A DNA stretch of 64,000 bases from an uncultured Trueperaceae bacterium (GCA_937873495.1 CALMXZ010000016.1:62001-126000); one strand, 5' to 3'; positions 19,865-37,337 are shown, counted from the stretch's first letter. Notes: generated by a model from the letters alone, not told the origin. Program-made: numbers and translations.

Positions 19865-20599
19865 CTAGGTAGCCTCGAACGCCTCTTTCACTAGCTCAGT
19901 CATCACCTCCAGCCAGCGCGCGATCAAACGCTCACCTTTCTCCGCGGTAGCGGCCGATGCGTCTCCGAACACACCTGTCCGGCTGAACTCCCGCCACGGC
20001 ACGACGCGTCCCGCGTAGCCAGGCGGAACCTGCGGGTACTCGCTAGGAGCCAGTTCCATCCGGCAGGCGTCGGGGGCAACGGCCAGCATCAGCGAGGTCT
20101 CTATCTCGGCCGCATGGAAGTTGTTGCCGTCCCACAAGGGCGTTTCCGCGATCCCGTCCATCACCCTCTTGGTGGCCGGATAACAGATCCTCACGGTCGC
20201 CATGTCCGGGAAGAGCTCCAGGAGCTTGCGGGCCGCGGAGACCATGACCTGGGCGTTGCCCATATGGCCGCTCAGCAGGACCAGCCGGCGCACGCCGTGG
20301 CGGTGAAGGCTGTCGGCTACGTCTACCAACACCGCCTCCAGGGCGGCTGGGCTAAGGCTGATGGTGCCCGGGAACTCGCGGGCCGACCAGACTTGGCCGT
20401 AGTTGAGAGTGGGCAGGAACAGGCCGTCGCAGCTCTCCGCCAGGCGCCTAGCCCAGAACGACGCCATAACGTTGTCCGTCCCCATGCTCATGTGGGGACC
20501 GTGTTGCTCCGTGGAGCCCAGCGGCAGGATGACGGGGCGCGTAGCGGTCAGAGCGATCTCCGCCTCCGGCCACGTCATGGCGTCCAGGGCCCGGTTCAT
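19865..20599 (-). CDS. Creatininase / creatinine amidohydrolase family protein
   Basis: Family of metal-dependent amidohydrolases that open cyclic amides (creatinine, formamide ring of FAPy compounds) or deformylate; MftE peptidases also belong here. The N-terminal VILPLGSTEQHGPHMSMGTD carries the Glu and His metal ligands, LVLLSGHMGNAQ corresponds to the SGHGGN motif (one Gly replaced by Met), and NFHAAEIETSLML to the HAGExET motif. 244 residues, typical size, cytoplasmic. It lies between BtpA/SgcQ and the binding protein. True creatinine degradation seems unlikely given the neighbouring lactonase and acid-sugar kinase; a lactam or amide in the imported compound is more likely. Confidence 0.87.
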   Translation of the reverse strand: MNRALDAMTWPEAEIALTATRPVILPLGSTEQHGPHMSMGTDNVMASFWARRLAESCDGLFLPTLNYGQVWSAREFPGTISLSPAALEAVLVDVADSLHRHGVRRLVLLSGHMGNAQVMVSAARKLLELFPDMATVRICYPATKRVMDGIAETPLWDGNNFHAAEIETSLMLAVAPDACRMELAPSEYPQVPPGYAGRVVPWREFSRTGVFGDASAATAEKGERLIARWLEVMTELVKEAFEAT

Positions 20600-20675
20600 C
20601 CTGGTGCGGCCCTGGTTGATCGGTCGGCACCCGTCGGCACCAGCTCAAGCGGGGTCTTACCGCGGCTCCGATAGC

Positions 20676-21503: not shown

Positions 21504-21577
21504 GCTCTCTCCTTAGGTGATGGCGTTCACTTGAAGCCGCTACGTGCCTAGGCGTACGCGGCCCAGGCGACTGCTAC

Positions 21578-22639
21578 TCAGAGCAGGGCTGGGAACGGCA
21601 GGTCGGGCTCGTGGCTGAAGGCGTCCTCGAAGCCGCGCCGGTGGTTGTAGATGAGACGGTCGGCATGGTCGGGGTATACGAACTTCCCGCCTACCTGCCA
21701 GATGAAGGGCTTGAAGGTGTATTGCAAACGGTCCTTGCGCATATTCCAGAGCACGATGATCTCGTTGGGGTCGCCCTGAAAGTTGCTCCATATGTCGTGA
21801 TGGACCGGCATGACGACCTTGGCGTTGAGGCTTTCCGCCGCCCTGAGGATGTCGTGCGACGACATCTTGTCTGTCATGCCTCGCGGGTTGTCCCCGAAGG
21901 CGCACAGCGCCACGTCGACCCGATGCTCGTTGCCGTGCCGCGCGAACCAGTTGGAGTAGTGAGAATCGCCGGCTAGATAGACGTTGCCTCCTGGCGTCTT
22001 GACCAGGTAGTTGACGGCTTTCTCGTTCATGTCCTGGACGGGTTGCCCGCGCATCTCGACTCCGGCCGGAGCGGTCACTAGGGCCGTCCTGTCGAACGCC
22101 TCGAGCACCACTATCTCCAGGTCCTTGAACTTGAGCGTGTCGCCAGGCCGCACCACTACGCAACGGTCTTCTGGCACTCCCCAAGAGAGCCACGTCTGAA
22201 CGCTCGACTGCGGTCCTACGAAGGGTACGTCGGGTGAGCAGTTCGCCAGCACGGCCGCGGCGACGTTCTTGTCTATGTGGTCGCTGTGGTTGTGGGTGGA
22301 GAGCACGGCGTCGACCTCGCGGATGGCGAACGGATCCAAGACGCACACCGAGTTCCGCAGGTTCGGTTGAGGCTTGCGGGCGCCGATCGCACGCGCGTGC
22401 TGATGGTGGGGCGGCATATCAGGAAGGTTCTTCGTACGCTTACCGGTCCCGACCCACAGATCGACACACAGGTTGGCCCCTCCCTCGGTCTTCACCCACA
22501 CCCCGGTGCAGCCAAGCCACCAAAGCGCGAACGTGCCGGGCTGGACTACCTCGCTAGCGATCTCTTCGTTCAGCCACGTGCCCCATTCGGGGAACGTCTC
22601 CAGAATCCACGACTCCCTTGTGATGCTGCTGATCGTCAC
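21578..22639 (-). CDS. ulaG: UlaG-like metallo-beta-lactamase-fold lactonase
   Basis: Closely resembles L-ascorbate-6-phosphate lactonase UlaG in length (353 residues) and motifs. [19 protein letters not shown] opens the protein, [19 protein letters not shown] contains the HxHxDH metal motif, and GWGVPE-type [41 protein letters not shown] and [20 protein letters not shown] supply the remaining ligands. The usual partners for ascorbate use (UlaA/B/C, UlaD-F) are absent, so another phosphorylated lactone or cyclic substrate is likely. GTG start with GGAGGG six bases upstream. First gene of the operon, directly behind a promoter and a SorC-type operator. Confidence 0.87.
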
Positions 22640-22685
22640 CCTAGACCCTCCAGACTGTCTGGGCTCATCGCCCTCGATGGCACCA

Positions 22686-22715
22686 ATCCTAGGCGGATGC
22701 GACCGAAGTTGTCAA
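22686..22715 (-). promoter_or_regulatory. Promoter of the ulaG operon
   Basis: Minus strand TTGACA (22715-22710), 18-base spacer, TAGGAT (22691-22686). The -35 is embedded in CTTGACAAC as at two other promoters in the window. The operator TTGCACATTTGTGCAA lies just upstream of the -35 (17 bases). Confidence 0.65.
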
Positions 22716-22732
22716 GACGAATTCGCACTGGC

Positions 22733-22748
22733 TTGCACATTTGTGCAA
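22733..22748. promoter_or_regulatory. SorC-type operator O1 (ulaG side)
   Basis: TTGCACATTTGTGCAA has perfect 7-base arms TTGCACA and TGTGCAA around TT. The core is shared with the second palindrome next to the regulator gene. Position upstream of the ulaG -35 suits either activation or looping with O2. Confidence 0.7.
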
Positions 22749-22895
22749 ATGAGACCGCCGCGCTGGTTCTGCGTGAAGCGACCCACATCATAGATAAACC
22801 CAGTGCTGAACGGAATTATCTCCGTAAGGCCGGACGCCGAGCCATCCCAAATCGCCCGGAAGCCCTGAGCCAACCGGACCCATCGGGTACAACGA

Positions 22896-22909
22896 TGCAC
22901 ATATGTGCA
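22896..22909. promoter_or_regulatory. SorC-type operator O2 (regulator side)
   Basis: TGCACATATGTGCA is a perfect 14-base palindrome, 12 bases before the regulator ATG. It is about 160 bases from O1, with the same TGCACAT half-site. A weak TACAAC at 22888-22893 would be the regulator's own -10, so O2 would overlap the transcript start and give autoregulation. Confidence 0.72.
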
Positions 22910-22921
22910 AGAATGGGAAGC

Positions 22922-23899
22922 ATGAAGGCAGCCGGTACCGACCAGACCCAGCAGGAACCAGCGAACGGCTCGCCGGCGGCGGCCGCGCTCATGCTCGAGG
23001 CCGCTCGCCTCTACTACGAACAGGACCAGACCCAGGGCGAGATCGCACTCAGGCTCGGAACATCACGCTCCACGGTGTCGCGGTTGTTGCGCGACGCCCG
23101 GCGCCTTGGAGTAGTGCGCATCACCCTCGACTACCAATGGGCACGCGACAAGACCCTCGAGGCCGGCCTCGTGAGTCGTTTCGGCTTACGCGAAGCCAGG
23201 GTGTTGCAGAACCCCAGCTACACCCACGAAGAGCTCCTGGACGGCCTAGGACGCCTCGCGGCAGACCTGGTCGCGGGCGAGGTCCGCGAAGGGATGATCC
23301 TCGGCGTCTCATACGGTCACTCGATAGCGGCGACCGTGGCGCATCTACAACCGCGGGAACGCGTCCGCATGACCGTGGTCCAGATCATAGGCGCGTTAGG
23401 CTCTGCCGACCCGCGCATAGAGGGGAGCGATCTGACCCGTGAACTCGCCCTGGCCTTCGGCGGCGAGTACCGTTACCTGTTCGCACCCCTCATGGTCGAG
23501 AGCGAGCGCGCACGGGACGTGATCCTCCAAGAGCCGCTCGTCCGTGAGACGATCGACCTCGGTCGGGCCGCCGACCTGGTGCTGATAGGCATCGGCTCCC
23601 CCAGCTCCGTGAGCTTCTGGTCCGGCTACCTGTCGCACTACGACCTCTCGAAACTAAGGCTCAAGGGGGCCGTAGGCCATATGTGCGCGGAGTTCTTCGA
23701 CCACGATGGGAAGGTTCTCGACATCCCCATCAACAAGCGATCGGTGAGCATCGGCCTGGAGTCGCTCCGTGCCGCCAAACGCGTGGTAGCCGTGGCTGGC
23801 GGTCCCGAGAAGGCCGACGCCATCGCGGCGGCCCTAAGAGGTGGCTACATCGACGTGCTGGTGACCGACGAGTTCGCGGCTCGGAGTGCGCTGGGGTGA
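22922..23899 (+). CDS. SorC/DeoR-family transcriptional regulator
   Basis: 325 residues. N-terminal helix-turn-helix at about 15-60 (AARLYYEQDQTQGEIALRLG, then TSRSTVSRLLRDARRLGVV), followed by the sugar-phosphate-binding domain (EVREGMILGVSYGHSIAATV; LVLIGIGSPSSVSFWSGYL; GAVGHMCAEFFDHDGKVLDI; VAVAGGPEKADAIAAALRGG). It is divergent from ulaG and flanked by two matching palindromes, so it almost certainly controls that operon, probably in response to a phosphorylated intermediate made by the operon's kinase. ATG 22922 gives the usual length; ATG 22913 is an in-frame alternative nine bases earlier. Confidence 0.92.
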   Translation: MKAAGTDQTQQEPANGSPAAAALMLEAARLYYEQDQTQGEIALRLGTSRSTVSRLLRDARRLGVVRITLDYQWARDKTLEAGLVSRFGLREARVLQNPSYTHEELLDGLGRLAADLVAGEVREGMILGVSYGHSIAATVAHLQPRERVRMTVVQIIGALGSADPRIEGSDLTRELALAFGGEYRYLFAPLMVESERARDVILQEPLVRETIDLGRAADLVLIGIGSPSSVSFWSGYLSHYDLSKLRLKGAVGHMCAEFFDHDGKVLDIPINKRSVSIGLESLRAAKRVVAVAGGPEKADAIAAALRGGYIDVLVTDEFAARSALG

Positions 23900-24093: not shown

Positions 24094-25449
24094 TCAGTAC
24101 ACGTGGGCGAGCAGGTCCTCCACGCTCGCCAGCTCGTCTAGAGCATGTACCGTCTCCCAGGCACCGTCTTCGCGATCTTCCGCCCCTACAAGGGCAAAGC
24201 ATTGGTTGAACTTCTCACGGAGCTCGGCACGTGACTCGAGCTGGACCGTGCCAGAAACCCTCTGCAGAACCGTCTCGCCCGATCGCAGCGTGATGGCGAC
24301 CTCTGTGAACTCACGATCTATCGCATCTACATTCGTCAAGTCCGAGTGGACCTCGAACGTAACCCTTCTAGCAAGCCGGAGCGCTTCCTCATCGAGGCTC
24401 GCACTAACCATGCGTGGCAATAGGGGGCGGTCGTAAAGGAGGCCGATCGCCAGGCAATACGGCAGACAGAACTTCGCCTGTAGAAGGTCCTGTGGCAGCG
24501 GGTACTTGAGCATCGTAGCGACCCGGTAGCTTCCGGTCACGTGGATCTTGGATGTTTCGGAGACGTTGATGCGCTGCCTAATGATGTGCGCTGCCTCGAT
24601 CGACTGGTGCGTCAGAGCACAGGATGGGAACCTCTTGAACCTTATCCCTTTCTCCTCCCAGGTGGATCCGGCTCCTACCATCTCGTGAACGCGGAAGCTT
24701 GGCACCTCCGACCGGGTCTGCCTCTGAAGCGATTCCACCGGATCCGTCGCACCGACTATCCCGCTGCTCGCTAGGATCGCTGCTCTGCAACCAGAGGCCG
24801 ACCCAAGCCCTACTTGCATCGGCTTGCCCGGAGTGCCGAAGTTGGCATTGGTACCAGCCACCTGCGCCAGCGCCAAGCTGGCTGCGCCGGCGGCCCGCTC
24901 GGGACTAAGGCCGAGCAGCCGCGAGCAAGCAAGGACGCTACCGAGCGCACCCAGGACGGCCGTTGGGTGAAGTCCTCTTTGCTGGACAGCCGTCGCTACC
25001 GACCGGCCAACAAGGGCCATACCGTCCGCGGCCGTCATGTAAGCGGCCAGCAAGTCTCGGCCCGTGGCACCCAGCTTGGCAGCCAAAGTGAGGGCGGATG
25101 ACAGCACCGGGCCGGATGGGTGGCCCCTTATGGAACCACCCATATCATCGAAGTCGAGGAGGTGGGAAAGGAACCCAAGGTAGGCGGATTCGGAGGCACA
25201 GGCCTCTACGTCGAGTGGGTGCTGCGCGACCCGCGTTCGAGGAGAGCCGGTTAGCCGGAAGGCCCTTGCGGCCGTCTCGGCCAAAGGTTCGACTCGCGCA
25301 GCTACGGTAACGGCGAGGAAGTCGGCGATGGCGTCTTTCGCCCGCAACACCTCCGCCTGTGAGTAGTGATCGAGCGGGCGCTCCAAAGCGATGTGCAGGA
25401 CGTTGGCTGTTGAGGCCGCGATCTGGCCGGATGCGCCCGCCGTTTGCAT
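24094..25449 (-). CDS. MmgE/PrpD family protein, copy 1
   Basis: Family that includes 2-methylcitrate dehydratase PrpD and cis-aconitate decarboxylase. 451 residues. N-terminal helical domain with KDAIADFLAVTVAARVEPLA, FLSHLLDFDDMGGSIRGHPS (the conserved Asp-Asp-His region) and GLHPTAVLGALGSVLACSRL; C-terminal part has RFKRFPSCALTHQSIEAAH. It is strongly similar throughout to copy 2 at 30039-31391. The start ATG shares a base with the M29-like stop (TGATG), as in copy 2. Hand-counted G+C of bases 24541-24600 is 32 of 60, lower than the aligned part of copy 2. Substrate not deducible; members act on carboxylic acids by hydration, dehydration or decarboxylation. Confidence 0.88.
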   Translation of the reverse strand: MQTAGASGQIAASTANVLHIALERPLDHYSQAEVLRAKDAIADFLAVTVAARVEPLAETAARAFRLTGSPRTRVAQHPLDVEACASESAYLGFLSHLLDFDDMGGSIRGHPSGPVLSSALTLAAKLGATGRDLLAAYMTAADGMALVGRSVATAVQQRGLHPTAVLGALGSVLACSRLLGLSPERAAGAASLALAQVAGTNANFGTPGKPMQVGLGSASGCRAAILASSGIVGATDPVESLQRQTRSEVPSFRVHEMVGAGSTWEEKGIRFKRFPSCALTHQSIEAAHIIRQRINVSETSKIHVTGSYRVATMLKYPLPQDLLQAKFCLPYCLAIGLLYDRPLLPRMVSASLDEEALRLARRVTFEVHSDLTNVDAIDREFTEVAITLRSGETVLQRVSGTVQLESRAELREKFNQCFALVGAEDREDGAWETVHALDELASVEDLLAHVY

Positions 25450-26477
25450 CAGGCCACTTGCCTTTGCGCGTCCAGCAGCCGACCATTGTCGATGACCAAC
25501 TCGTCGTCAATAGTCAAAGTGCAACCCAGGATGCACATGTCGAGATGCGAAGGCGCTTCGACGGGACCGGCCACGCCACGAGAGTCGAACTGAAGCGTGT
25601 TCTTACCGACGCAGAAATGGACGCAGCCTGAGATGCGCTCGTCTTCCAGAACACGGCCCGTCAGCTTGGCTGTCGGGTGGGTACCGATGCCGAGCGTAGA
25701 AACATGCATGCAATTCTCGAAGAGTTCATGGCCTTCGAACTGCTTGAAGTAGGTCTTCAACTCCTCCGCCTCACGCCCACCCTCGATAGCCACCATGATC
25801 CCGTCCTTCACGGTGACGCGTACCGGCTCACCGAGAGGAGCGGTCGGGATGCGGCCGATGGTGCCGTTGACCACCAAGACACCGTTACCGCTGTTCTTCA
25901 CGCCGATGCAACCAGTACTGCCCGGAGGGAACCAGTCACGTTCGCCTGGCTGTCTCACCAATCCAGTGCGGGAGCCGCCTACATAATCGCCAAGGTCGAA
26001 GTAGAAGTCGGTGCCGAGCGAAGAGGTAAGGTGCACGCGCCGACCGTTCAGTCGGTTGGCCACGGTGGCGCACAGCTTGGTAAGCCAGTCCATGTCGAGG
26101 CCTTCGGTCAACCTAACCAACATCTCTTCGTCAGCATTGTTGGGGATACCGAGCACCCTGGCTCCGGCTTTGCGCGCTTGGTGCACGGCTTGCGTATAGC
26201 TGATCGTCAGCGTCTCGAGCGTGACGATGGCGTCTGCAGCACACATCGCAGCCACGACTACGGCTGGTGGTTCCTGGTTAGCGTATCCACGCCTGGAGAA
26301 AACAACCAGTTGACCTTCTGCGCCTGCTCGGTTCGCAGCCGCCACGAATGCCCTAGGCACCGTGAGATCCTCACGGTCCGTAACGATGAGAACCTGCTCC
26401 CCTTCGCGAGCGCCGACGCATGTCCCTACGGCGAAATCCGCCGCGGCATCGAGCCTAGGACTAGAAGTCTGATTCAT
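25449..26477 (-). CDS. M29 aminopeptidase-T / NicX-like metalloprotein, copy 1
   Basis: 342 residues. Belongs to the superfamily that holds aminopeptidase T (M29) and 2,5-dihydroxypyridine dioxygenase NicX. Diagnostic segments: EGEQVLIVTDREDLTVPRAF, GTDFYFDLGDYV, TGCIGVKNSGNGVLVVNGTI and the late THPTAKLTGRVLEDERISG followed by CVHFCVGKN, which aligns with the metal-site region G-NP...LTGN-LEDEK-GT-H-A-G-N of the family. The ATG overlaps the M20 stop (ATGA). Nearly the same protein occurs at 31391-32419. I cannot tell peptidase from dioxygenase by eye; the neighbourhood with amidase, M20 and PrpD does not decide it. Confidence 0.82.
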   Translation of the reverse strand: MNQTSSPRLDAAADFAVGTCVGAREGEQVLIVTDREDLTVPRAFVAAANRAGAEGQLVVFSRRGYANQEPPAVVVAAMCAADAIVTLETLTISYTQAVHQARKAGARVLGIPNNADEEMLVRLTEGLDMDWLTKLCATVANRLNGRRVHLTSSLGTDFYFDLGDYVGGSRTGLVRQPGERDWFPPGSTGCIGVKNSGNGVLVVNGTIGRIPTAPLGEPVRVTVKDGIMVAIEGGREAEELKTYFKQFEGHELFENCMHVSTLGIGTHPTAKLTGRVLEDERISGCVHFCVGKNTLQFDSRGVAGPVEAPSHLDMCILGCTLTIDDELVIDNGRLLDAQRQVA

Positions 26478-27709
26478 GCTTGAACATCTCCGTTTCTGGC
26501 GTCGCCTGTCGACACCTGAAGGTCTGAGGCCCACTTACGCACCGCGGACCCATAGATCTTGCTGGCTGCTACGACATTTCGAAGGCTTACATTCTCGTTC
26601 CTCCCATGAGCACGGCTACTAGAGGCGTCACTGGGGCTCAAACCAAGCAGCGTTGGAACACCGTGCTGGATGAAGAATTTGGCATCATTCCCTCCAACCA
26701 GCCCGCGAACCATGGGCGTCTGCCCGGTGACCTCTTCGATGGCCTCAAGCACGTACCTGACTATCGGTTGGCTGGTATCTGTATCGATAGGAGGCTGATG
26801 GCGAAGGAGGCTCACGCGGCTCGTACAGAGTCGGCGCGAAGCAACGGTACTGGCCAGTTCCTCGCACCTTTCCAGCAGAGACGCGAGGTCAACCCCGGGA
26901 ACGAGCCGGCAGTCAACGGTCGCTTCTGCGCGGCCGGGCACAGCGTTAGGACTGGTGCCCCCCTGGATGGTGGTGCCGACGACCATGGAGGGCGGCCCGA
27001 GTCTTGGATGCTCGATGGGAGGAAGTAGGCTCGCGCTATCTAGCGCGAGGAGGACGTCGGCAAGCGCCAGTACGGCGTTCTTCCCCTGCTCTGGCCTGGC
27101 AGAGTGTGCAGACACTCCTTCCACCGTGATTCCGAGTCGCGCCACACCTTTAGACGCCACGCGGATACCCCAGATCCCACCCTCGAGGCCGCTGCCATCG
27201 CAGACGATCGCGGCTGCCACCTGTAGACGTTCGAGCATGCCACTAGCCAACGCGGCTCCGGTGCCCTTCGCGCCGCCGGTTTCCTCGTCGGCCACGAACA
27301 TGCCACAGAGCCGAAAGCCCTTGATCCACCCCGCGCGGTGGGCAGACAACAGGGCCATGAAGGCCGCGGTAACACCGGCCTTGTTGTCTGCTGCCCCACG
27401 CCCGTACATATGGCCGTCGACTACCCTCCCCTCGAACGGCGGGTAGTCCCAGTCGGCCGCGTCTACAACGGGCACCGTGTCGAGGTGGGCGTTGAGCACG
27501 AGCGTCGGACCTTCCGTGCCGGCCACCAGCAGGACGCTCTGTTGTGCGGCATCGCCGATGATCTCGACGGTTAGCCCTTCCGCCCGTGCTCGTTCCGCAA
27601 GGAACGCAACTGCTCCGGTGGTGTCGCCCGGTGGGTTGGTAGTCGGTACGCTCACCAACCCGCGAAGAAGCTCCGTAGCTTCATCTAGCGCCTGAAGATC
27701 ATCTATCAA
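26474..27709 (-). CDS. M20 family metallohydrolase (ArgE/DapE type), copy 1
   Basis: Zinc amidohydrolase family that removes acyl groups from amino acids or cleaves dipeptides. About 411 residues: LVLNAHLDTVPVVDAADWDY (metal His and catalytic Asp), MYGRGAADNKAGVTAAFMAL (bridging Asp), MFVADEETGGAKGTGA (catalytic Glu pair), lid domain with VEGVSAHSARPEQGKNA, and C-terminal LSPSDASSSRAHGRNENVSL with the last metal His. I place the start at a TTG preceded by AGGAGG seven bases away; the paralogue at 32416-33654 has the same TTG-plus-GGAGG arrangement. An in-frame start at 27730 would add seven residues without a ribosome site. Confidence 0.88.
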   Translation of the reverse strand: MIDDLQALDEATELLRGLVSVPTTNPPGDTTGAVAFLAERARAEGLTVEIIGDAAQQSVLLVAGTEGPTLVLNAHLDTVPVVDAADWDYPPFEGRVVDGHMYGRGAADNKAGVTAAFMALLSAHRAGWIKGFRLCGMFVADEETGGAKGTGAALASGMLERLQVAAAIVCDGSGLEGGIWGIRVASKGVARLGITVEGVSAHSARPEQGKNAVLALADVLLALDSASLLPPIEHPRLGPPSMVVGTTIQGGTSPNAVPGRAEATVDCRLVPGVDLASLLERCEELASTVASRRLCTSRVSLLRHQPPIDTDTSQPIVRYVLEAIEEVTGQTPMVRGLVGGNDAKFFIQHGVPTLLGLSPSDASSSRAHGRNENVSLRNVVAASKIYGSAVRKWASDLQVSTGDARNGDVQA

Positions 27710-27739
27710 CGCCCAACCTCCTGAACGCACTGCTCTTAC

Positions 27740-29134
27740 TTACGGTAGAAGCGTCCTCGGCTCCTCGAATGCCTGCCACCCGTGATGGGCCTCATGCAGT
27801 TCTCCCATGCGAAGCAGGAGGGCTTCGGAGTATGGCCCGCCGACCAACTGCATGCCGATAGGGAGTCCGGCCCGGTCGAACCCGCAAGGGATTGTCAAGG
27901 CGGGGTAGCCGCATAGGTTGAAAGGAGCCGTGTTCGCCGACATGTCTGGCAGTTCACCAGCCCCGATGTCCAGTCTGGCGGCAGTGAAGGGAACGGTCGG
28001 GGTGATCAGCACGTCGACGCTCTCCATGACCAAGCGGATCTCGTCGAGCCAGCGGTCCCTTATGCCGACGGCGCGAAAGCGGTCGGCCGGCCCGAAGGCA
28101 CCGCCCATGAGGAGCCGCGATCGTGCCTGATCGCCGTACAAGTGCCCGAGTTCGGCAAGCCGGCTCCGATGAGCCTCGAACGCTTCCATTCGCGCAAGGA
28201 CCCTGAACGCCTCCCCGAGCTCCTCGGCGACGGGCGTGGCCACGGCCTTGATCCTGGCGCCATGGTCGTCGAAGAACGCGATGGCCGCGTCCACCGCGTT
28301 CCTGACGTCGGGCTCGGCGGCGTCGAAGAAGTGCTCTCGAGGGACCCCGATCGTCAGGCCGCTCAAGGCCCGTGGCGACTCCGCAGACTCGGACGAGACC
28401 CGAGTGACTCCTGGGGCTACGGCACGCCATGGCCGTTCGGCCATGCATTCCAGCATGACCGCCACATCGGCAACGGTCCTCGTCATAGGGCCGACATGGT
28501 CGAACGACGGACTCAAAGGGATGCAGCCGTCGGTGCTCACCAGGCCATAAGTCGGCTTCAGACCCACTACCCCGCATAGACTCGCCGGAACGCGGATCGA
28601 GCCGCCCGTGTCCGAGCCGACCGCCGCCGCGGCCAGGCCGGCGGCGACGGCGATCGCAGAGCCGCTGCTGGACGCACCGGCGTGACGCTTCGTGTTCCAC
28701 GGGTTCGCCGGGGTGCCGAACATCGGCGTGCCCCCGCAAGCGAACTCGCTGGTGTTCGTCTTGCCGATCAGGATCGACCCGCAGTTTCGCAGTCGCCTGA
28801 CAGCCTCTGCATCCACATCTGGAACGAAATCCCGCAGGACTTCCGAGTGAGCGGTCGTCCGCACGCCCTTGGTCCAGATGTTGTCCTTCACGGCGATCGG
28901 GATCCCATGGAGGCGCCCCCGGTACCGCCCCGCCTCGATGTCGGCTTGCGCACGCTCGGCTGCCTCTCTCGCCTCCGAACCGCAGACGGTTATGTATGCC
29001 CTAAGAACCTCGTCGAGGCCGCTGATGCGTCGTATGTACGAGTCGACGAGCTGGACGGGGCTAACCTCACGCCTCCACACCAGCTCGGACAACTCCCACA
29101 AGCTGCGGAAAGCCAGTTCGCCGGAACCGGTCAT
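27740..29134 (-). CDS. Amidase signature family protein
   Basis: Hydrolyses carboxamides through a Ser-cisSer-Lys triad. 464 residues with the lysine in IPIAVKDNIWTKGVRTTAHS, the Gly/Ser-rich signature KRHAGASSSGSAIAVAAGLA and SDTGGSIRVPASLCGVVGLK (cis-Ser and nucleophile Ser), and C-terminal FNLCGYPALTIPCGFDRAGL. All catalytic residues appear intact. Not accompanied by GatB/C, so it is a stand-alone catabolic amidase rather than a tRNA amidotransferase subunit. It precedes M20 copy 1 by 30 bases and follows the enoyl-CoA hydratase gene, in one long co-directional set. Confidence 0.92.
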   Translation of the reverse strand: MTGSGELAFRSLWELSELVWRREVSPVQLVDSYIRRISGLDEVLRAYITVCGSEAREAAERAQADIEAGRYRGRLHGIPIAVKDNIWTKGVRTTAHSEVLRDFVPDVDAEAVRRLRNCGSILIGKTNTSEFACGGTPMFGTPANPWNTKRHAGASSSGSAIAVAAGLAAAAVGSDTGGSIRVPASLCGVVGLKPTYGLVSTDGCIPLSPSFDHVGPMTRTVADVAVMLECMAERPWRAVAPGVTRVSSESAESPRALSGLTIGVPREHFFDAAEPDVRNAVDAAIAFFDDHGARIKAVATPVAEELGEAFRVLARMEAFEAHRSRLAELGHLYGDQARSRLLMGGAFGPADRFRAVGIRDRWLDEIRLVMESVDVLITPTVPFTAARLDIGAGELPDMSANTAPFNLCGYPALTIPCGFDRAGLPIGMQLVGGPYSEALLLRMGELHEAHHGWQAFEEPRTLLP

Positions 29135-29190
29135 CGCCCTAACTACCGACCCGTTGATCGTTCGCCGCGACAGCCAAGGCCGGATAGCGG

Positions 29191-29976
29191 TTAGGCCCTT
29201 CCAACCGAAGGCTCCTCGCTCTTCCTAGCGAGGAACTTAGCCGCTCCGGCCCTGAGCTCGCCGGACGCGTAGCTGGATGCATGGGCTCCGACGGCATGCG
29301 CGGCAGTCTGAGCGAAGCTCGCCGCGGTCATCTCACGCCACCACTCCTTGCATAGCCTCACGGCCAAGGGCGGCTTGTCGGCCAATTGTTCGCTCAGCAC
29401 CTTCACGCTAGCTTCAAGCGCATCATCGGGCACGACCTCATGCACGAGACCCAGGCGCAACGCCTCGGCGGAGTCGATGAAGTCGCTCGTCAGTACGAGG
29501 CGACGCACGTTGGCCTCGCCGATGATCGGCCAGAGTATGCCACTTCCCGTGATGGCCGGCGCACCGATCTTCAGCTCCGGCAGCGCGAACTTCGCTTCCG
29601 GAGTGGCTATTCGGATGTCGGCGAGCGCCGCGACTTGCAGACCGGCACCGACAGCGTAGCCGCGGATCCCGGCTACCACGGGCTTGTTCATGTCGCGCAG
29701 TGCCTGGAACAGGCCTACGTACGTCTCGATCCGCCTAGCAGCCGCTTCGGCCGTGAACTGGCGGCTCTCCTTCTGATCCTGCCCGGCGCAGAAGGCGCGC
29801 CCAGCGCCCCGCAGCACCACGACACGGACTGCATCGTCCTCGTTCAGCTCCCTGAGCTGCCCGGTGAGGGCGGTGCGCAGCTCGTGGTTCATCGCGTTCA
29901 GGACGGCCGGGCGGTTGAAGGTGACGTAAGCGACCGAGTCAGTCGTCTCGAATTGCAGGGTCTCGCTCTCTGGCAT
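29191..29976 (-). CDS. Enoyl-CoA hydratase/isomerase family protein
   Basis: Crotonase fold, 261 residues. VAYVTFNRPAVLNAMNHELR at the start, then the oxyanion-hole segment LRGAGRAFCAGQDQKE and the second one NKPVVAGIRGYAVGAGLQVA. Acidic active-site positions follow in FALPELKIGAPAITGSGI. It acts on an acyl-CoA, which fits the CoA-transferase that heads this operon: activation to a CoA ester, then hydration, isomerisation or hydrolysis. ATG with GGAGG five bases upstream. It separates the two PrpD-M29-M20 triads. Confidence 0.92.
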   Translation of the reverse strand: MPESETLQFETTDSVAYVTFNRPAVLNAMNHELRTALTGQLRELNEDDAVRVVVLRGAGRAFCAGQDQKESRQFTAEAAARRIETYVGLFQALRDMNKPVVAGIRGYAVGAGLQVAALADIRIATPEAKFALPELKIGAPAITGSGILWPIIGEANVRRLVLTSDFIDSAEALRLGLVHEVVPDDALEASVKVLSEQLADKPPLAVRLCKEWWREMTAASFAQTAAHAVGAHASSYASGELRAGAAKFLARKSEEPSVGRA

Positions 29977-30038
29977 GCTTTCCTCCGTCGGCTCTAGCGC
30001 GCCTCGTAAGGGCCGCGCGAGCCGAGCGCGTGGCGCGC

Positions 30039-31391
30039 TCAGTACAGGTGGGCGAGCAAGTCTTCCACGCTCGCTGAACTCTCGAGGGTCTTTACGGTTT
30101 CCCAGCATTCGTCCGCGCCGCTCTCCCCCACGAGCGCGAAGCACTGGCGCAGTTTCTCTTGCACCGCTTGGCTGGACCCCAGTTGGACGACGCCCGCCAC
30201 GGTTCGACTCACGCTTCTTCCCGACTGCGAGATGACTTCGACCTCGGTGAACTCCCGGTCGATGCACTCCACGGTCGTAAGGTCAGGGTGAATCCTGAAC
30301 TCCACTCGCTTGGCAAGCTCGAGTGCGGCCGGGTCGAGCACCTGCCTTGCCATCCTTGGCAGCAGCGGGCGATCGTAGAGGAGGCCGATCGCGAGGCAGT
30401 AGGGCAAGCTGAACTTGGCTTGGAGCTGATCGGTGGGAACCGGGTACTTGAGCATAGAGGCAACGCGGTAACTTCCTGCCACATGGATCTCGACGCTCTC
30501 GCCGGCGTCGATGCTCTGCCGGAGGTAGTAGGCGGCCTCGATAGACTGGTGTGTCAACGCGCAAGACGGGAACATCTTGAACATGATCCCGCCCTCACGC
30601 CAGTCAGATTCGCTAGAAACCGACTCAAGGACGCGGAACTCGGGCACTTCTGAGCGACTCTGTCTCCGCAACGATTCGACCGGATCAAGCGCGCCGACGA
30701 TGCCGTTCGTGGCGAGGAACGCGGCTCGGCAGCCGGCAGCGGACCCCAAGCCGACCTGCATAGCCTTCGCTGGCGTGCCGAAGTTGGCCGTGGTTCCCGC
30801 TACTTGCGCCAACGCCAAGCTAACCGCGCCGGCGGTTTGCTCTCGGCTAAGGCCCAGCAGGCGCGAACAGGCCAGGGCACTGCCGAGCGCACCCAGCACC
30901 GCGGTCGGATGGAGGCCGCGCTGTTGAACAGCCGTTGCAACGGACCGGCCAGCGATCGCCATGCCGTCGACCGCCGTCATGTAGGCGGCCAGCACTTCAG
31001 CGCCCGACTTCCCAAGCCATGCGGACAGGGGCAACACGGCTGACAAGACGGGGCCGGTCGGATGACCCCTGATGGAGTCGCCCATGTCGTCGAAGTCGAG
31101 TAGGTGGGAGAGGAACCCAAGATGAGCGGTCGCAGTGGCGCAAGCCTCGAGGTCGGGCACGTGCCGCAAAGACCGAGGGCGTTCGCGATCCGTGATCGCG
31201 AACGCCCTGCCGACGGACCGAGCCAAAGGCTCGACCCGGGCGGCCACGGTCACGGCCAAGTAGTCCGCGATCGCGTCCTTCGCCCTACCTATCTCCGCTT
31301 GGGAGTAGTGTCCCAACGGGCGCTCCAGCGCGACCTGCACGACGTTGGCCGTCGAAGCCGCCACCTGGTCGCCAGCGCCCGGCTGGGGCAT
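30039..31391 (-). CDS. MmgE/PrpD family protein, copy 2
   Basis: 450 residues, paralogue of copy 1 with almost the same segments: KDAIADYLAVTVAARVEPLA, FLSHLLDFDDMGDSIRGHPT, GLHPTAVLGALGSALACSRL, MFKMFPSCALTHQSIEAAYY, and the same C-terminus VEDLLAHLY against VEDLLAHVY. ATG shares a base with the M29-like stop. Hand-counted G+C in bases 30481-30540 is 40 of 60, against 32 of 60 in the matching stretch of copy 1, so the proteins stayed alike while synonymous sites diverged. It is transcribed with the ABC importer and CoA-transferase. Confidence 0.88.
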   Translation of the reverse strand: MPQPGAGDQVAASTANVVQVALERPLGHYSQAEIGRAKDAIADYLAVTVAARVEPLARSVGRAFAITDRERPRSLRHVPDLEACATATAHLGFLSHLLDFDDMGDSIRGHPTGPVLSAVLPLSAWLGKSGAEVLAAYMTAVDGMAIAGRSVATAVQQRGLHPTAVLGALGSALACSRLLGLSREQTAGAVSLALAQVAGTTANFGTPAKAMQVGLGSAAGCRAAFLATNGIVGALDPVESLRRQSRSEVPEFRVLESVSSESDWREGGIMFKMFPSCALTHQSIEAAYYLRQSIDAGESVEIHVAGSYRVASMLKYPVPTDQLQAKFSLPYCLAIGLLYDRPLLPRMARQVLDPAALELAKRVEFRIHPDLTTVECIDREFTEVEVISQSGRSVSRTVAGVVQLGSSQAVQEKLRQCFALVGESGADECWETVKTLESSASVEDLLAHLY

Positions 31392-32419
31392 CAGGCCGCG
31401 TACCCTTCGGCTTGGAGCAGGCGACCGTTGTCGATGATCAGCTCGCCATCGATCGTCAGGGTGCATCCGATCATGCACATGTCCAGATGCGACGGCGCCT
31501 CGACAGTGCCGGCCACGCCGCGAGGATCGGATTGAAGGGTGTTCTTGCCCACGCAGAAGTGCACGCAGCCGGAGATGCGCTCGTCTTCGAGGACCCTGCC
31601 GGTCAGCTTCGCCGTCGGATGGGTACCGATGCCGAGCGTCGAGACGTGCATGCAGTTCTTGAAGAGCTCGTGGCCCTCGAACTGCTTGAAGTAGGTCTTC
31701 AGCTCCTCGGCCTCGCGCCCGCCTTCGATGGAGACCATGATGCCGTCCTTGACGGTGATGCGCACGGGCTCGCCCAGCGGCGCCGTCGGGATGCGGCCGA
31801 TGGTGCCGTTGACGACGAGGACGCCGTTGCCGCTGCCCTGGACGCCGATACAGCCGGTGTTGCCGGGCGGGAACCAGTCGCGCTCACCGGGTTCCCTCAC
31901 GAGCCCCGTCAGGGAGTCGCCGACGTAGTCGCCCAAGTCGAAGTGGAAATCGGTGCCGAGCGCCGAGGTCAAGTGGACCCGGCGACCGTTGAGCTTTCCG
32001 GCCACGGCCGCGCCCAGGCTGATCAGGCGGTCCATGTCGAGACCTTCGGTGAGGCGGACCAGCATCTCCTCGTCCGCGTTGTTAGGGATCCCAAGGACCC
32101 GCGCGCCCGCTTCCCTAGCCTCATGAACGGCCTGCGTGTAGCTGACCGTCAAGGTCTCGAGGGTCACGATGGCGTCTGCCGCACGCATCGCAGCGACCGT
32201 CGTGCCGGGCGGCTCCTGGTTCGCGTAGGCCAGGCGTGGGAACACGACGAGTTGACCTTGGGCGCCTGCGCGGTTGGCGGCAGCCACGAACGCCATCGGC
32301 ACCGTGAGGTCGTCCCGGTCCGTGACGATCAGTACCTGCTCGCCTGCGCTGGCTCCCAGACAGATGCCGACCGCGAAGTCTGCCGCGGTGTCCAGCTTGG
32401 ATCTCCGTAATTCAGTCAT
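31391..32419 (-). CDS. M29 aminopeptidase-T / NicX-like metalloprotein, copy 2
   Basis: 342 residues, same length as copy 1 and nearly identical from GNGVLVVNGTIGRIPTAPLG through HPTAKLTGRVLEDERISG to the C-terminus. Differences cluster in the first half (for example SYTQAVHEAREAGARVLGI versus ...VHQARKAG...). The ATG overlaps the M20 stop by ATGA. Hand-counted G+C of 31801-31860 is 41 of 60, versus 34 of 60 for the aligned 25861-25920. The same family uncertainty applies: peptidase-like or ring-opening dioxygenase-like. Confidence 0.82.
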   Translation of the reverse strand: MTELRRSKLDTAADFAVGICLGASAGEQVLIVTDRDDLTVPMAFVAAANRAGAQGQLVVFPRLAYANQEPPGTTVAAMRAADAIVTLETLTVSYTQAVHEAREAGARVLGIPNNADEEMLVRLTEGLDMDRLISLGAAVAGKLNGRRVHLTSALGTDFHFDLGDYVGDSLTGLVREPGERDWFPPGNTGCIGVQGSGNGVLVVNGTIGRIPTAPLGEPVRITVKDGIMVSIEGGREAEELKTYFKQFEGHELFKNCMHVSTLGIGTHPTAKLTGRVLEDERISGCVHFCVGKNTLQSDPRGVAGTVEAPSHLDMCMIGCTLTIDGELIIDNGRLLQAEGYAA

Positions 32420-33654
32420 CTTTGAACCCTTCCTGTTCTTACGCTGCTAGTTGGCAGATGAAACTCCGCGGCCCACTTGCGGATAGCGGTGCCGTAGATT
32501 TGGCTTGCCGTTACAACGTTCCGGATGCTTACATTCTCGTTCCTCCCATGAGTTCGGCTCGTTGCGGCGTCACTCGGGCTGAGCCCGAGGAGGGTGGGTA
32601 CTCCACGTTCGATGAAGTACTTGGCGTCGTTGCCCCCGACCAAACCCCTGACCTCGGGGGCTTGTCCGGTTACCTCGGCGATGGCCGCCAACGTGTGTTT
32701 GACGACGGGTTGGTCGACATCGGTATCGAGCGGCGGCAAGTAGAGCAACACGCTGACTTGGCTCGTGCATGACCAGCGCGCCGCGACACTGCTCGCCAAG
32801 GCCTCGCACCTCGCCACGACGGACGGGAGATCCACACCTGGCACGAGCCGGCAGTCGACGGTCGCCTCCGCCGAACCCGGCACGGCGTTGGGGCTGGTAC
32901 CGCCCTGAACCGTGGTCCCGGCCACCAACGATGGGGCACCGAGCGTGGGGTGACTCAGCGAAGGAAGCACGTCGGAACCGTGCAGGGCAAGGAGGACGTC
33001 TGCAAGCGCGAGGACGGCGTTCCTCCCCTGCTCCGGCCTCGCGGCATGCGCCGAGACCCCTTCGACCTTGATTCCTAGGCGCGCCATGCCCTTGGAGGCC
33101 ACGCGTACCCCCCATGCGCCACTCTCGAGGCCGGCACCGTCGCAGACGAGGGCGGCGGCCACGTCGAGGCGCTCCAACGCGCCACTCGCCACCACCGCCC
33201 CGGTGCCCTTGGCACCGCCCATCTCTTCGTCGGCCACGAACATGCCGCAGAGCCTGAAGTCCTTGGTCAACCCCTCGCGATGGGCGGCGAGCAACGCCAT
33301 GAAAGCCGCCGCCACGCCGGCCTTGTTGTCGGCCGCCCCGCGCCCGTACATGCGACCATCGACCACGCGCCCTTCGAACGGCGGGTATTCCCAGTCGGAG
33401 GCATCGACCACCGGCACCGTATCGAGGTGGGCATTCAGCACGAACGTCGGGCCCGCGACGCCGCTCACCAGCAGCACGCTCTGTTGCTCGGCGTCACCGA
33501 CTACTTCGACCGCCAAGCCTGCGGCACGCGCGCGGTCTGCCAGGAAAGCGACAACTTCGCGAGTGTCGCCGGGCGGATTGACGGTAGGCCGCTCCACCAA
33601 GCCGCGCAGCAGCTCCGTGGCTTCTTCTTCTAACGCTCGTCGTTCACCGATCAA
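32416..33654 (-). CDS. M20 family metallohydrolase (ArgE/DapE type), copy 2
   Basis: About 412 residues with the complete metal and catalytic set: FVLNAHLDTVPVVDASDWEY, MYGRGAADNKAGVAAAFMAL, MFVADEEMGGAKGTGA, VEGVSAHAARPEQGRNA and LSPSDAATSRTHGRNENVSI. It parallels copy 1 along its length. Start set to a TTG with GGAGG eight bases before it, matching copy 1; an ATG at 33699 lacks a ribosome site and adds 15 polar residues. Last of the triad to be translated first: M20, then M29-like, then PrpD, each with overlapping stop and start. Confidence 0.88.
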   Translation of the reverse strand: MIGERRALEEEATELLRGLVERPTVNPPGDTREVVAFLADRARAAGLAVEVVGDAEQQSVLLVSGVAGPTFVLNAHLDTVPVVDASDWEYPPFEGRVVDGRMYGRGAADNKAGVAAAFMALLAAHREGLTKDFRLCGMFVADEEMGGAKGTGAVVASGALERLDVAAALVCDGAGLESGAWGVRVASKGMARLGIKVEGVSAHAARPEQGRNAVLALADVLLALHGSDVLPSLSHPTLGAPSLVAGTTVQGGTSPNAVPGSAEATVDCRLVPGVDLPSVVARCEALASSVAARWSCTSQVSVLLYLPPLDTDVDQPVVKHTLAAIAEVTGQAPEVRGLVGGNDAKYFIERGVPTLLGLSPSDAATSRTHGRNENVSIRNVVTASQIYGTAIRKWAAEFHLPTSSVRTGRVQR

Positions 33655-33738: not shown

Positions 33739-34593
33739 CTACAGCCTCTTGTGCGGGTCGAGTACCTCCCGCAGGCCGTCGCCGAGGATGTTGAAACCGA
33801 TGACGCATATGGTGATCGCCAGGCCGGGGAAAGTGCTCCACCACCAGTAGTCGATGATGAACGCCCGGCCTTCGTTGACCATGGCGCCCCATTCAGGCGT
33901 GGGGGGCTGGGCTCCCAGGCCCAGGAAACTGAGGGTGGCGGTGGTGAGGATGATGTAGCCGACGTCGAGTGTCATCTTGACGACGACGGGTGTGATCGTT
34001 TGTGGGAGTATGTGCCGCCACAGGATACGAGCGTCCTTGCCGCCAAGCGCCCGCGCGCCCTCGACGAACGTCGTCCCTTTGAGCATGAGAACCTCGCCGC
34101 GTATCAGGCGCGCATAACCCGGCCACCACACGAAAGCGATGGCGATCATGGCTCCGGTCAGGCCCGGCCCCACCACGGCGTTGACCGCCATGGCGAGGAT
34201 GAACCCAGGGAAGGCGAGGAACACGTCTGTGACGCGCATGATGAAGCTGTCGAGCGTCCCTCCGAAGTACCCCCCGATGGCACCGAGCAGCGTCCCTATG
34301 CCCACCGCTATCGGCAGGACTATGCAGACGACGAGGAGCGAGATACGAGTACCGGCGACGACACGACCGAGGATGTCTCTACCGACCGCGTCCGTGCCGA
34401 ACCAGTGCTCGGCCGAAGGCGCCTTGAAACGTTGCATGACGTTTAGCTGGTTGGTATCGGCCGGCACGAGCATCGGACCGAAGACGGCCAGGCCAAGGAA
34501 GATCATCAAGAACACGCTGCCCACGACGAAGTCGGGGCTGCGCAGCCATCGCGGCCAGCGACGACGCGTGGCGACGGTAGTACCTCTCACCAT
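33739..34593 (-). CDS. Peptide-type ABC transporter permease (DppC-like)
   Basis: 284 residues. Basic N-terminus (TTVATRRRWPRWLRS), a single helix FVVGSVFLMIFLGLAVFGPM, EHWFGTDAVGRDILGRVVAG, five helices, EAA loop ALGGKDARILWRHILPQTIT and FLGLGAQPPTPEWGAMVNEG, ending GDGLREVLDPHKRL. ATG 34593 overlaps the DppB stop by seven bases. Part of the importer that feeds the CoA-transferase/PrpD/M20 pathway. Confidence 0.93.
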   Translation of the reverse strand: MVRGTTVATRRRWPRWLRSPDFVVGSVFLMIFLGLAVFGPMLVPADTNQLNVMQRFKAPSAEHWFGTDAVGRDILGRVVAGTRISLLVVCIVLPIAVGIGTLLGAIGGYFGGTLDSFIMRVTDVFLAFPGFILAMAVNAVVGPGLTGAMIAIAFVWWPGYARLIRGEVLMLKGTTFVEGARALGGKDARILWRHILPQTITPVVVKMTLDVGYIILTTATLSFLGLGAQPPTPEWGAMVNEGRAFIIDYWWWSTFPGLAITICVIGFNILGDGLREVLDPHKRL

Positions 34594-35594
34594 GTCCGCA
34601 ACTTCGGGTTGACGACCGCATAGAGCGTGTCGACGAGGAAGTTCATGACCACGAACGTGATGGCGATCACGAGCGTGAACGCAAGTATCACTGGGAGGTC
34701 GTGGTTGATCATGGCGTTGTAGGCGTAGTAGCCGATGCCTGGGAAGCTGAATACGACTTCGACGAGTATGGTGCCTTGCAAGATCCAACCGAACTGAAGA
34801 CCGAGGATCGTGATGGCCGGCGTAGCAGCGTTGCGCAAAGCATGTTTGAAGCCGATCTTGCGTTCGCTCACGCCCTTGGAACGAGCCGTGCGGATGTAGT
34901 CCTCGTGGAGGATCTCTAGCACCGTCGACCTCAGGAGACGGGTGACCACCGTCAGTCGACCAAGCGCGAGGGTCACTACCGGCAGCACGAGATGGGCCAC
35001 GGTGCTCCCGAACGCCTGGAAGTTGCCGGCTATGAGTGAATCGAGTAGATAGGAGCCCGTGGGTCCATCGAGCCGCGGCAGTCCGAAAGCTATGCGACCG
35101 CCGCCGGGGAGCCAGCCGAGCTTGCCGTAGAAGAGGATCATGAGCATGAGCCCGAGCCAGAAGACGGGCAGGCCCGCCCCGACGAACGCGAGGAGCCTGG
35201 TTACCTGGTCGAGGGCCCGGCCGCTATGCTGCGCAGCCAGAACCCCGAGTGGGATCCCGAGCGCCGCTATTATCACGATGCTCACGACGGCCAGCTCGAG
35301 CGTAGCCGGCAGATAGGCGCGCATGTCTTCTTGGACTCGTCGCTGCGAGGTAAGAGATAAGCCTAGGTCACCCCTGGCGAGGTTCCATAGGTAGGTCCCG
35401 TACCTGACGTACAGCGGCTTGTCCAATCCGAACTCGCGCCTCAAGATCTCGACCTGTTCCGCTCGCACGCGCTCGCCGGCGAAGGCCCTGATCGGGTCGC
35501 CCGGGATCATCTCCTGCACGAGGAAGAGCACGGTGACCGTGCCGAGGATCACGAGCACGAGACCGATGGCGCGTCCGAGAATGTAGCGAAGCAT
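34587..35594 (-). CDS. Peptide-type ABC transporter permease (DppB-like)
   Basis: 335 residues, with N-terminal helix AIGLVLVILGTVTVLFLVQE, IPGDPIRAFAGERVRAEQ, KPLYVRYGTYLWNLARGDLG, five further helices, loop ARSKGVSERKIGFKHALRNA and EVVFSFPGIGYYAYNAMINH. A somewhat longer periplasmic loop (GGGRIAFGLPRLDGPTGSYL) than in the other DppB proteins here. A strong hairpin lies 37 bases upstream of its start, between it and the binding-protein gene. Confidence 0.93.
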   Translation of the reverse strand: MLRYILGRAIGLVLVILGTVTVLFLVQEMIPGDPIRAFAGERVRAEQVEILRREFGLDKPLYVRYGTYLWNLARGDLGLSLTSQRRVQEDMRAYLPATLELAVVSIVIIAALGIPLGVLAAQHSGRALDQVTRLLAFVGAGLPVFWLGLMLMILFYGKLGWLPGGGRIAFGLPRLDGPTGSYLLDSLIAGNFQAFGSTVAHLVLPVVTLALGRLTVVTRLLRSTVLEILHEDYIRTARSKGVSERKIGFKHALRNAATPAITILGLQFGWILQGTILVEVVFSFPGIGYYAYNAMINHDLPVILAFTLVIAITFVVMNFLVDTLYAVVNPKLRTW

Positions 35595-35759: not shown

Positions 35760-37337
35760 TCAGGGCTTGTTCAGGCGGATCTGGCGGAAGTTGATGGTGT
35801 CGTGGAATGCCGGGTCGTACGTGTAGCCTTCTACCCACTTCCGCATTGCGATCAGGTAGCCGGGGTTGGAGACGTAGACGTCGACGGCGTCTTCGACGAT
35901 CTCGTCCTGGGCCTGGGCGTAGATCGCGTCGCGCAGGGCGGGGTCCGTCGTCGCCTGCGCCAGAGAGATCAGCTTGTCGACCTCCGGGTTGGAATAGCGA
36001 CCCGGGTTGCCAGCCGCAGGCGTCACGCTCGAGTAGTACATCGAGAAGAGGAAGCTATCCACATCCGGGTAGGACGGGTATTGGAAGAAGCCGGACAGTT
36101 CGGGTGTCGTGCTCTCGTTACCCCACGACTCGACCATGGAGCCGTAAGTGCCCTCGACTAGGTTCAGGGTGATACCGAAGCCGGCGAGCGTCTGCTGCAG
36201 GAGCTCGCCCGCCCGGCGCTGCTCCTCGAACCCGCTGGAGTAGCGATAGGTGAGCACGAGCCCGCTGTTGAGTACGCCGGCGTCGGCTAGCAACTGCCGC
36301 GCGCGCTCCGGGTCGTAAGGTCGGTCGTAGGCGACACTGCCTGGGATGCTGGCTGGGACGGGACCGGTCAGAGGACTCGAGAGCCCTTCCCTCAGAACCA
36401 TGAGGCTCTGCTGGTCGAAGGCCAGTTGGAGGGCTTGGCGGACTCGAATGTCGTTCAGTGGGGGCTTGGTAAGCGCGAGGCGGAAGTAGAGCCCAACCGG
36501 GGTCTCATGGGTCTCGACCGCGATATCCGGGTTCCTGCTTAGCCCCGGCACGTCGTCGATCGACAGGTTCATAGCGATGTCGATCTCACCGCGTTCCAGC
36601 ATCAGGCGTTGCGTGGCCGGTTCACGGATGATCCGGTGGACGACCTTCTGAGGCGCGCGCTCGTCGAAGCCGCCCCAGTAGTCGGGGAAGCGCTCGAAGC
36701 TGACGCTCTGGTCGATGACCCATTCGCTGAACTGGTAAGGGCCCGTGCCGTCGGCGTGGTCGAGGAACCACTGCCTCGCCCACGGGTCGTCGCTCGTCGC
36801 ATGCTCGGCTACTCCCGCCGGGCTGACGATCCACAGCTTGGGCACCATGTAGAGGAAGGCGCTGTTCGGCTTGTCGAGCGACACCTTGACGGTGTAGTCG
36901 TCGATGACCTCGGCGCTCTCGAACGGCTGGATCAGGACTGCCGTGCCGATGGCGTCGTAACGCTCGAGGGAGACCTTGACCGCCTCCGCGGTGAACGGCG
37001 TGCCGTCGTGGAAGAGCACGCCCTGGCGCAGGTGGAAGACGTAGGCAGCACCGCCGTCCAGGACTTCCCAACTCTCGGCGAGGAGTGGGATCAGCTCTGT
37101 CGAGCCGGGCGCGTACCCAAGGAGGCCTTCGTAGGCCGCGCGCGCTGGGCGGATGACGGAAGCGGTATCAGTGATGTGAGGGTCCAGCGTCCTGGGTGGT
37201 GAGGAGTGGGCCCATACCAGGGTGTCGGAAAGAGACTGCGCCCCCGCCCATGCGGTCGTGGCGATGGCGATCACCACCAAGGCAGCGAGCCTGCCCCATG
37301 GGGTCTTCCTGCTACGTGGTTGGCTTTGGTGGGTCAT
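35760..37337 (-). CDS. ABC transporter periplasmic substrate-binding protein, family 5
   Basis: 525 residues. Tat/Sec-like N-terminus THQSQPRSRKTPWGRLAALV with hydrophobic core and cleavage near AWAGA-QS. Mature hallmarks: SPPRTLDPHITDTASVIRPA, RQGVLFHDGTPFTAEAVKVS, VRQALQLAFDQQSLMVLREG, YRYSSGFEEQRRAGELLQQ. ATG with GGAGGG four bases upstream; the frame runs further upstream but without family similarity and into the CoA-transferase gap. It is 77 bases behind the CoA-transferase gene. Confidence 0.93.
   Translation of the reverse strand: MTHQSQPRSRKTPWGRLAALVVIAIATTAWAGAQSLSDTLVWAHSSPPRTLDPHITDTASVIRPARAAYEGLLGYAPGSTELIPLLAESWEVLDGGAAYVFHLRQGVLFHDGTPFTAEAVKVSLERYDAIGTAVLIQPFESAEVIDDYTVKVSLDKPNSAFLYMVPKLWIVSPAGVAEHATSDDPWARQWFLDHADGTGPYQFSEWVIDQSVSFERFPDYWGGFDERAPQKVVHRIIREPATQRLMLERGEIDIAMNLSIDDVPGLSRNPDIAVETHETPVGLYFRLALTKPPLNDIRVRQALQLAFDQQSLMVLREGLSSPLTGPVPASIPGSVAYDRPYDPERARQLLADAGVLNSGLVLTYRYSSGFEEQRRAGELLQQTLAGFGITLNLVEGTYGSMVESWGNESTTPELSGFFQYPSYPDVDSFLFSMYYSSVTPAAGNPGRYSNPEVDKLISLAQATTDPALRDAIYAQAQDEIVEDAVDVYVSNPGYLIAMRKWVEGYTYDPAFHDTINFRQIRLNKP

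Follow-up and report, generated by a model that had tools for sequence, protein, structure and literature searches.

Several characterized proteins bear upon the cassette described here, in which an M20 amidohydrolase, a NicX/M29-fold protein (hereafter, M29-like), and an MmgE/PrpD enzyme (PrpD) are encoded side by side, twice, within a 64,000-nucleotide stretch of DNA (the window) from an uncultured Trueperaceae bacterium (GCA_937873495.1 CALMXZ010000016.1:62001-126000). M29 aminopeptidases carry the catalytic set E-E-H-Y-H-D, for which residue roles have been described (LmAmpII E250 and E316; PMC7023490), and NicX binds Fe(II) through His265, Ser302, His318, and Asp320 and its substrate through Glu177 and His189 (PMC7910607). 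CgnE, a protein of crocagin synthesis, has the same fold with a ruined metal site and no metal bound (PMC10070186). For MmgE/PrpD enzymes, six common residues have been listed, iminodisuccinate epimerase and methylsuccinate isomerase use a tyrosine as their second base, and every characterized substrate is a 1,4-dicarboxylate with a substituent at C2 or C3; a described cluster with a coenzyme A (CoA)-transferase, a hydratase, and an MmgE/PrpD enzyme degrades itaconate and methylsuccinate (PMC12290011).

We tentatively read the window locus as two anciently diverged, functionally maintained catabolic cassettes in one operon with an importer, an amidase, a hydratase, and a CoA-transferase, acting on an amide-linked substituted succinate, although this reading as a whole falls somewhat short of an even chance. 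The cassette is ordinary at the family level; what is new are two specific active-site predictions, concerning the metal site of the M29-like protein and a glutamine in PrpD.

A Three-Gene Cassette in Two Copies

The two cassettes lie head to tail on the minus strand, at 24094-27709 and 30039-33654. The upstream copy encodes an M20 amidohydrolase/deacylase (32416-33654; 412 residues), the M29-like protein (31391-32419; 342 residues), and PrpD (30039-31391; 450 residues), and the downstream copy encodes their counterparts (26474-27709, 25449-26477, and 24094-25449; 411, 342, and 451 residues). In both, the M20 gene begins with TTG preceded by GGAGG, and the junctions are ATGA (M20/M29-like) and TGATG (M29-like/PrpD). 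The first-pass annotation had described these six open reading frames (ORFs), and their order, junctions, starts, and lengths were all found as given there.

Protein identity between the copies is 74% for M20, 84% for M29-like, and 70% for PrpD, whereas no other relative found exceeds about 36%, a resemblance therefore far beyond chance; the first-pass annotation had named identity no higher than that to unrelated homologues as an outcome that would speak against its reading. Synonymous divergence (dS; NG86) is saturated at 1.47, 1.37, and 1.55, respectively, with 60%, 60%, and 58% of four-fold sites differing, which agrees with the earlier view that the copies are no fresh duplication and diverged long ago. 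Nonsynonymous divergence (dN) is 0.17, 0.11, and 0.23, giving dN/dS ratios of at most 0.12, 0.08, and 0.15, these being upper bounds because synonymous sites are saturated. Relative-rate counts against outgroups reveal equal rates of evolution and no asymmetry between the copies, and recent gene conversion is ruled out by a third-position divergence of 0.36-0.64 in all 50-codon segments. Taken together, saturation, low dN/dS, symmetric rates, and the lack of conversion indicate that both copies are intact and old and that purifying selection acts on them.

Duplication is confined to the cassette. Families of direct repeats fall at one constant offset, 5942 bases, and the 300-base flanks on either side of the cassettes align no better than shuffled sequence. 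A wider duplication taking in the transporter is ruled out, as the window's two Dpp-type transporter sets are 32-39% identical (35-39% for the permease pair upstream of the first cassette and the second permease pair). Given the equal, saturated divergence, low dN/dS, equal rates, and lack of homology outside, the three genes have moved and aged together, as a single unit.

Origin and Maintenance of the Copies

The copies differ in base composition, as had been noted from a few aligned rows, and the difference holds at the gene level in all three pairs. Guanine-plus-cytosine (G+C) content, downstream versus upstream, is 0.627/0.663 for M20, 0.598/0.662 for M29-like, and 0.625/0.650 for PrpD, and at third codon positions (GC3) it is 0.675/0.770, 0.688/0.860, and 0.712/0.787. 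Where the two copies encode the same amino acid, 220 codon sites are AT downstream and GC upstream, versus 96 the reverse (p=2.4e-12). Elsewhere in the genome, G+C is 69.6% in the stretches sampled, with a median GC3 of 0.89 (mechanical ORF set), and window ORFs at about 15-58 kb are lower (G+C 0.57-0.68). The downstream copy resembles a low-G+C block at 40-52 kb (GC3 0.64-0.71), and the upstream copy resembles the rest of the operon. This pattern fits acquired DNA at different stages of adjustment; it is compatible with either an old duplication or two imports and does not distinguish between them.

That the same type of cassette was imported twice, from different donors, and landed in one operon, rather than being duplicated within the lineage, is accordingly a serious contender, if not quite an even prospect. 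The consistent GC3 difference and the separate resemblances of the two copies speak for it, as does the absence of the trio from the five congeners and the phylum genomes examined, whereas the copies are by far each other's closest relatives and no donor was found in the searches made.

The cassettes probably act on two related substrates. It is possible, though on the unlikely side, that the copies are functionally equivalent and were kept for dosage, without any difference in substrate. The active-site positions inspected agree between the copies except at residue 187 of the M29-like protein (N187/S187), and their rates are symmetric; yet PrpD has diverged by 30% and M20 by 26%, and loss is the usual fate of old redundant copies.

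The PrpD and M20 Proteins

Both PrpD copies score above the Pfam cut-offs for PF03972 (107 and 115 bits) and PF19305 (61 and 51 bits), and both align with all six common MmgE/PrpD residues (H85, D88, H99, H150, K198, and K266; 2hp0 numbering). The second catalytic base of the epimerase and isomerase (Tyr145/Tyr148) is glutamine in both copies and tyrosine in eight of the nine other aligned homologues. Because glutamine replaces this tyrosine, epimerization seems unlikely for either copy, and a one-base reaction, as has been proposed for cis-aconitate decarboxylase, is more likely.

The M20 copies possess the Pfam M20 and dimerization domains (PF01546 and PF07687, above cut-off) and complete zinc-ligand motifs (AHLDTV, GRGAADNKAG, ADEE, VCDG, and HGRNENV). 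Scores against the DapE/ArgE deacylase model TIGR01910 (186.8 and 186.6 bits) are below its cut-off of 217.6 bits, and the same is true for all named M20 models listed.

The NicX/M29-Fold Protein

The earlier label of M29/NicX-like holds for the fold. An AlphaFold model of the protein (mean predicted local distance difference test score, pLDDT, of 74.6) matches NicX (7cn3) with Z 29.1 over 307 residues, followed by AmpT (Z 20.3), AmpS (Z 20.2), and PepS (Z 20.0); by sequence, too, no solved structure matches better than NicX (E 8e-19). The label does not extend to the active site, which is that of neither family. Against Pfam M29 (PF02073; gathering score 27), the downstream copy scores 14.2 bits, and the upstream copy has no Pfam match. 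The M29 catalytic set is incomplete: E250 is replaced by N187 (upstream) or S187 (downstream), E316 by T261, and the tyrosine is absent. At the E316 position, nearly all family members have glutamate, NicX-like proteins histidine, and one protein glutamine, with threonine found only in the window pair. Likewise, His267, six residues farther on, occurs only in this pair, most family members having asparagine. Of the NicX ligands, His265 and Ser302 are replaced by Thr261 and Gln296, and His318/Asp320 match His311/Asp313; the substrate residues Glu177 and His189 are replaced by Leu170 and Trp182. Both copies retain His287, His311, and Asp313, and residues 201-300, a segment containing part of the metal site, are the most conserved (94-96%). 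As in NicX, the loop before the second histidine is long. The simplest reading of these alignments is a mononuclear His/His/Asp metal site.

A bolder extension is conceivable, in which the protein would represent a third kind of active site for the NicX/M29 fold, mononuclear at His287 (or His267)/His311/Asp313, and would work with a deacylase and a PrpD lyase of the one-base kind in an undescribed pathway, in two substrate-specialized versions; we regard this combination as doubtful. The M29-like protein might instead be a binding or scaffold protein similar to CgnE, with no catalytic role. Both bridging glutamate positions are indeed replaced, and the CgnE structure matches the model (Z 14.4), but of the three proteins the M29-like one is best conserved, and it keeps His287, His311, and Asp313 in both copies while CgnE has lost other residues, such that a scaffold role is unlikely. 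Finally, the pyridine-derived substrate suggested in the first-pass annotation finds no support in gene context, and a nicotinate-type pathway, with a NicX-type Fe(II) dioxygenase and M20 in place of N-formylmaleamate deformylase, is highly improbable (ring cleavage of this type being unlikely) despite NicX being the best match by sequence and fold and the NicX-like loop, given the replacements of His265, Glu177, and His189 and the fact that true NicX loci have maleate isomerase, deformylase, and maleamate amidohydrolase, none of which was seen in this operon.

Altered sites were also observed elsewhere on this fold. Same-family proteins at L048 9659-10741, L049 8619-9731, and L050 948-2387 have histidine at the Glu316 position and glycine for a nearly invariant metal-site aspartate, which, as judged by alignment, would make them another altered metal site; an M20 carbamoylase-type gene is nearby in all three and, in L048, directly follows the M29-fold gene. 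In two genomes (L077 8005-10068 and L074 8771-11146), tandem M29-like genes directly adjoin a Dpp importer, and the first gene of L077 has lost the M29 glutamate and histidine while possessing a NicX-like histidine. On a haloarchaeal plasmid (L052 5192-9963), two M29-like genes flank genes for tricarballylate dehydrogenase TcuA and PrpF, beside a tripartite tricarboxylate transporter, and annotated aminopeptidases of this type may therefore belong to tricarboxylate breakdown.

Operon Context

The apparent operon runs on the minus strand from 38638 to 24094 (14.5 kb). Its first gene encodes a CaiB/BaiF (family III) CoA-transferase (37415-38638; PF02515), for which the nearest NCBIfam models are those of succinate-glutarate and mesaconate CoA-transferases, with no score reaching its cut-off. 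This is followed by the solute-binding protein of a peptide-type ATP-binding cassette (ABC) transporter (35760-37265; NCBIfam GsiB-like, E 1e-51, below cut-off) and, directly upstream of the first cassette, two Dpp/Opp-type permeases (33739-35594; ORFs 34587-35594 and 33739-34788). Between the cassettes, as the first reading of the sequence had it, are genes for an enoyl-CoA hydratase/isomerase (29191-29976; 261 residues; PF00378) and an amidase-signature amidase (27740-29134; 464 residues; PF01425, E 1e-106). An IclR-type regulator (38825-39778; PF01614 and PF09339) is divergent, on the plus strand. Gene direction and spacing suggest a single transcript from CaiB to the last PrpD; promoter and terminator scans returned no more than in shuffled sequence.

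Relatives of PrpD, enoyl-CoA hydratase, and CaiB adjoin each other in three other genomes (L116, L117, and L118, the latter two of one family), a module thus recurrent in two families, in which the PrpD proteins keep the epimerase tyrosine. Neither citramalyl-CoA lyase nor methylsuccinyl-CoA (acyl-CoA) dehydrogenase was found among the window proteins scanned, these scans having taken in part of the ORFs.

Distribution

Among 390 genomes (about 285 genera), no relative of the M29-like protein exceeds 36% identity, and in 111 genomes of the phylum, none other than its own pair has an E value below 1e-50. Relatives of PrpD reach at most 34% identity, and no M20 relative in 380 genomes has an E value below 1e-55. 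A tblastn search of 72,556 plasmid records gave best matches of about 31-33% for each of the three genes (M20, about 33%; no M29-like protein above about 31% among the best matches), and viral contigs searched for the trio yielded nothing. Of two degenerate-pattern scans covering 84,980 species, the first returned no relative and the second nine M29-like relatives at 30-34%. In a tree of 51 M29-like family members, the window pair has short tips on a long stem of 1.64 changes per site with full support.

No other genome searched, among them 110 from the same phylum, contained the trio. The neighborhoods inspected, those of about 55 M29-like homologues, held no recognized PrpD relative next to the M29-like gene; at four loci, one in the window's own genome, distant M20 relatives of the DapE type occur within a few kb of it, and never with PrpD. 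No literature was found in which PrpD is connected to NicX, or MmgE to M20 and leucyl aminopeptidase. On present evidence, then, the trio is confined to this genome. Phylum-level searches around G247, G141, G133, and G167 each covered a tiny phylum, and since each large phylum was apparently represented by only a handful of genomes, rare relatives could have escaped detection. Conservation of the triad in other genomes, which the first-pass annotation had named beforehand as a test, thus failed to appear, with no M20 and PrpD pair at any of these homologues; its view of the triad as a functional unit draws support from block-wise divergence, constant spacing, and unrelated flanks, but none from gene order elsewhere.

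Proposed Pathway

A substituted succinate, presented as an amide or N-acyl compound, is suggested by the PrpD-hydratase-CaiB module, the itaconate cluster, known PrpD substrates, and the peptide-type importer. In the proposed scheme, the importer would take up an N-acyl or amide-linked compound with a substituted 1,4-dicarboxylate (succinate-like) part, and the amidase and M20 enzyme would split amide bonds. The NicX/M29-fold enzyme would carry out one metal-dependent step, probably with one metal held by His311, Asp313, and either His287 or His267, and PrpD would act as a one-base lyase, performing dehydration or decarboxylation on the 1,4-dicarboxylate rather than epimerization. The CoA-transferase and hydratase would pass the product into central metabolism. 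As the trio occurs in no other searched genome, this is probably a small, undescribed pathway for amide-linked organic acids.

Several points weigh against this proposal. Comparative support is limited to the duplication, the trio being absent from every other genome searched, and the substrate class and chemistry are inferred. Both cassette copies may catalyze the same reaction. The only homologues of known function of the M29-like protein (which has none above 36%) are NicX and peptidases, at about 22% identity or less, and its metal site is read from alignments, with model pLDDT below 50 at 292-310, adjoining the site.

The locus is a clean natural example of an entire block of three enzymes that persists, in a single operon, as two versions that diverged long ago. 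It also draws attention to a few NicX/M29-fold proteins, a small group, with a metal site unlike both known types, beside a PrpD not expected to epimerize. If borne out, these two predictions would bring a further chemistry to a fold whose members databases routinely label leucyl aminopeptidase.

Other Gene Sets in the Window

Two further gene sets were observed. The low-G+C block (40401-52418; about 0.57-0.62) includes a gene that scores 542.8 against the NCBIfam model for ErtE N-carbamyl-L-glutamate amidohydrolase (cut-off 520), together with ornithine cyclodeaminase family, histidine ammonia-lyase type, UbiD decarboxylase, Dpp importer, amidohydrolase, dihydrodipicolinate synthase (DHDPS)-type aldolase, and GntR regulator genes; it possibly serves imidazole or ergothioneine-like breakdown, for which UbiD is an odd partner. 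A second catabolic set (15013-23899) comprises a SorC-type regulator, a metallo-beta-lactamase-fold (UlaG-like) protein, a BtpA family protein, a creatininase, a Dpp importer, and a DUF1537-type kinase.

Comparison with Known Systems

The M29 aminopeptidases AmpT, AmpS, and PepS, and short M29-like proteins, share with the window protein the fold (Z about 20) and the metal-site His and His-x-Asp. The short relatives are 30-36% identical to it, and some likewise adjoin Dpp importers. The window protein differs from M29 peptidases in having N/S and T for both catalytic glutamates, in lacking the tyrosine, and in falling below the Pfam M29 cut-off. The crocagin proteins CgnB and CgnE have the same fold and also lie outside Pfam M29, with metal sites that decayed after duplication; other residues were lost there, and no context of a ribosomally synthesized and post-translationally modified peptide (RiPP) precursor was recognized here, none having been searched for. 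The 2,5-dihydroxypyridine 5,6-dioxygenases NicX and NdpE share the fold, the equivalents of His311/Asp313, and the long preceding loop, but are about 22% identical to the window protein, in which His265 and both substrate-binding residues are replaced and beside which no deformylase, maleamate amidase, or maleate isomerase gene is seen.

Iminodisuccinate epimerase (2hp3) is the best solved match of PrpD (E 3e-27), with common His, Asp, and Lys residues; however, it is distant in sequence, and its catalytic Tyr145 is glutamine in both copies. Finally, the itaconate/methylsuccinate cluster of Pseudomonas and Cupriavidus (Ict, Ich, and Msi) similarly unites a CoA-transferase, a hydratase, and an MmgE/PrpD enzyme, whereas the window operon has a PrpD without the isomerase tyrosine and adds M20, amidase, and M29-like genes.

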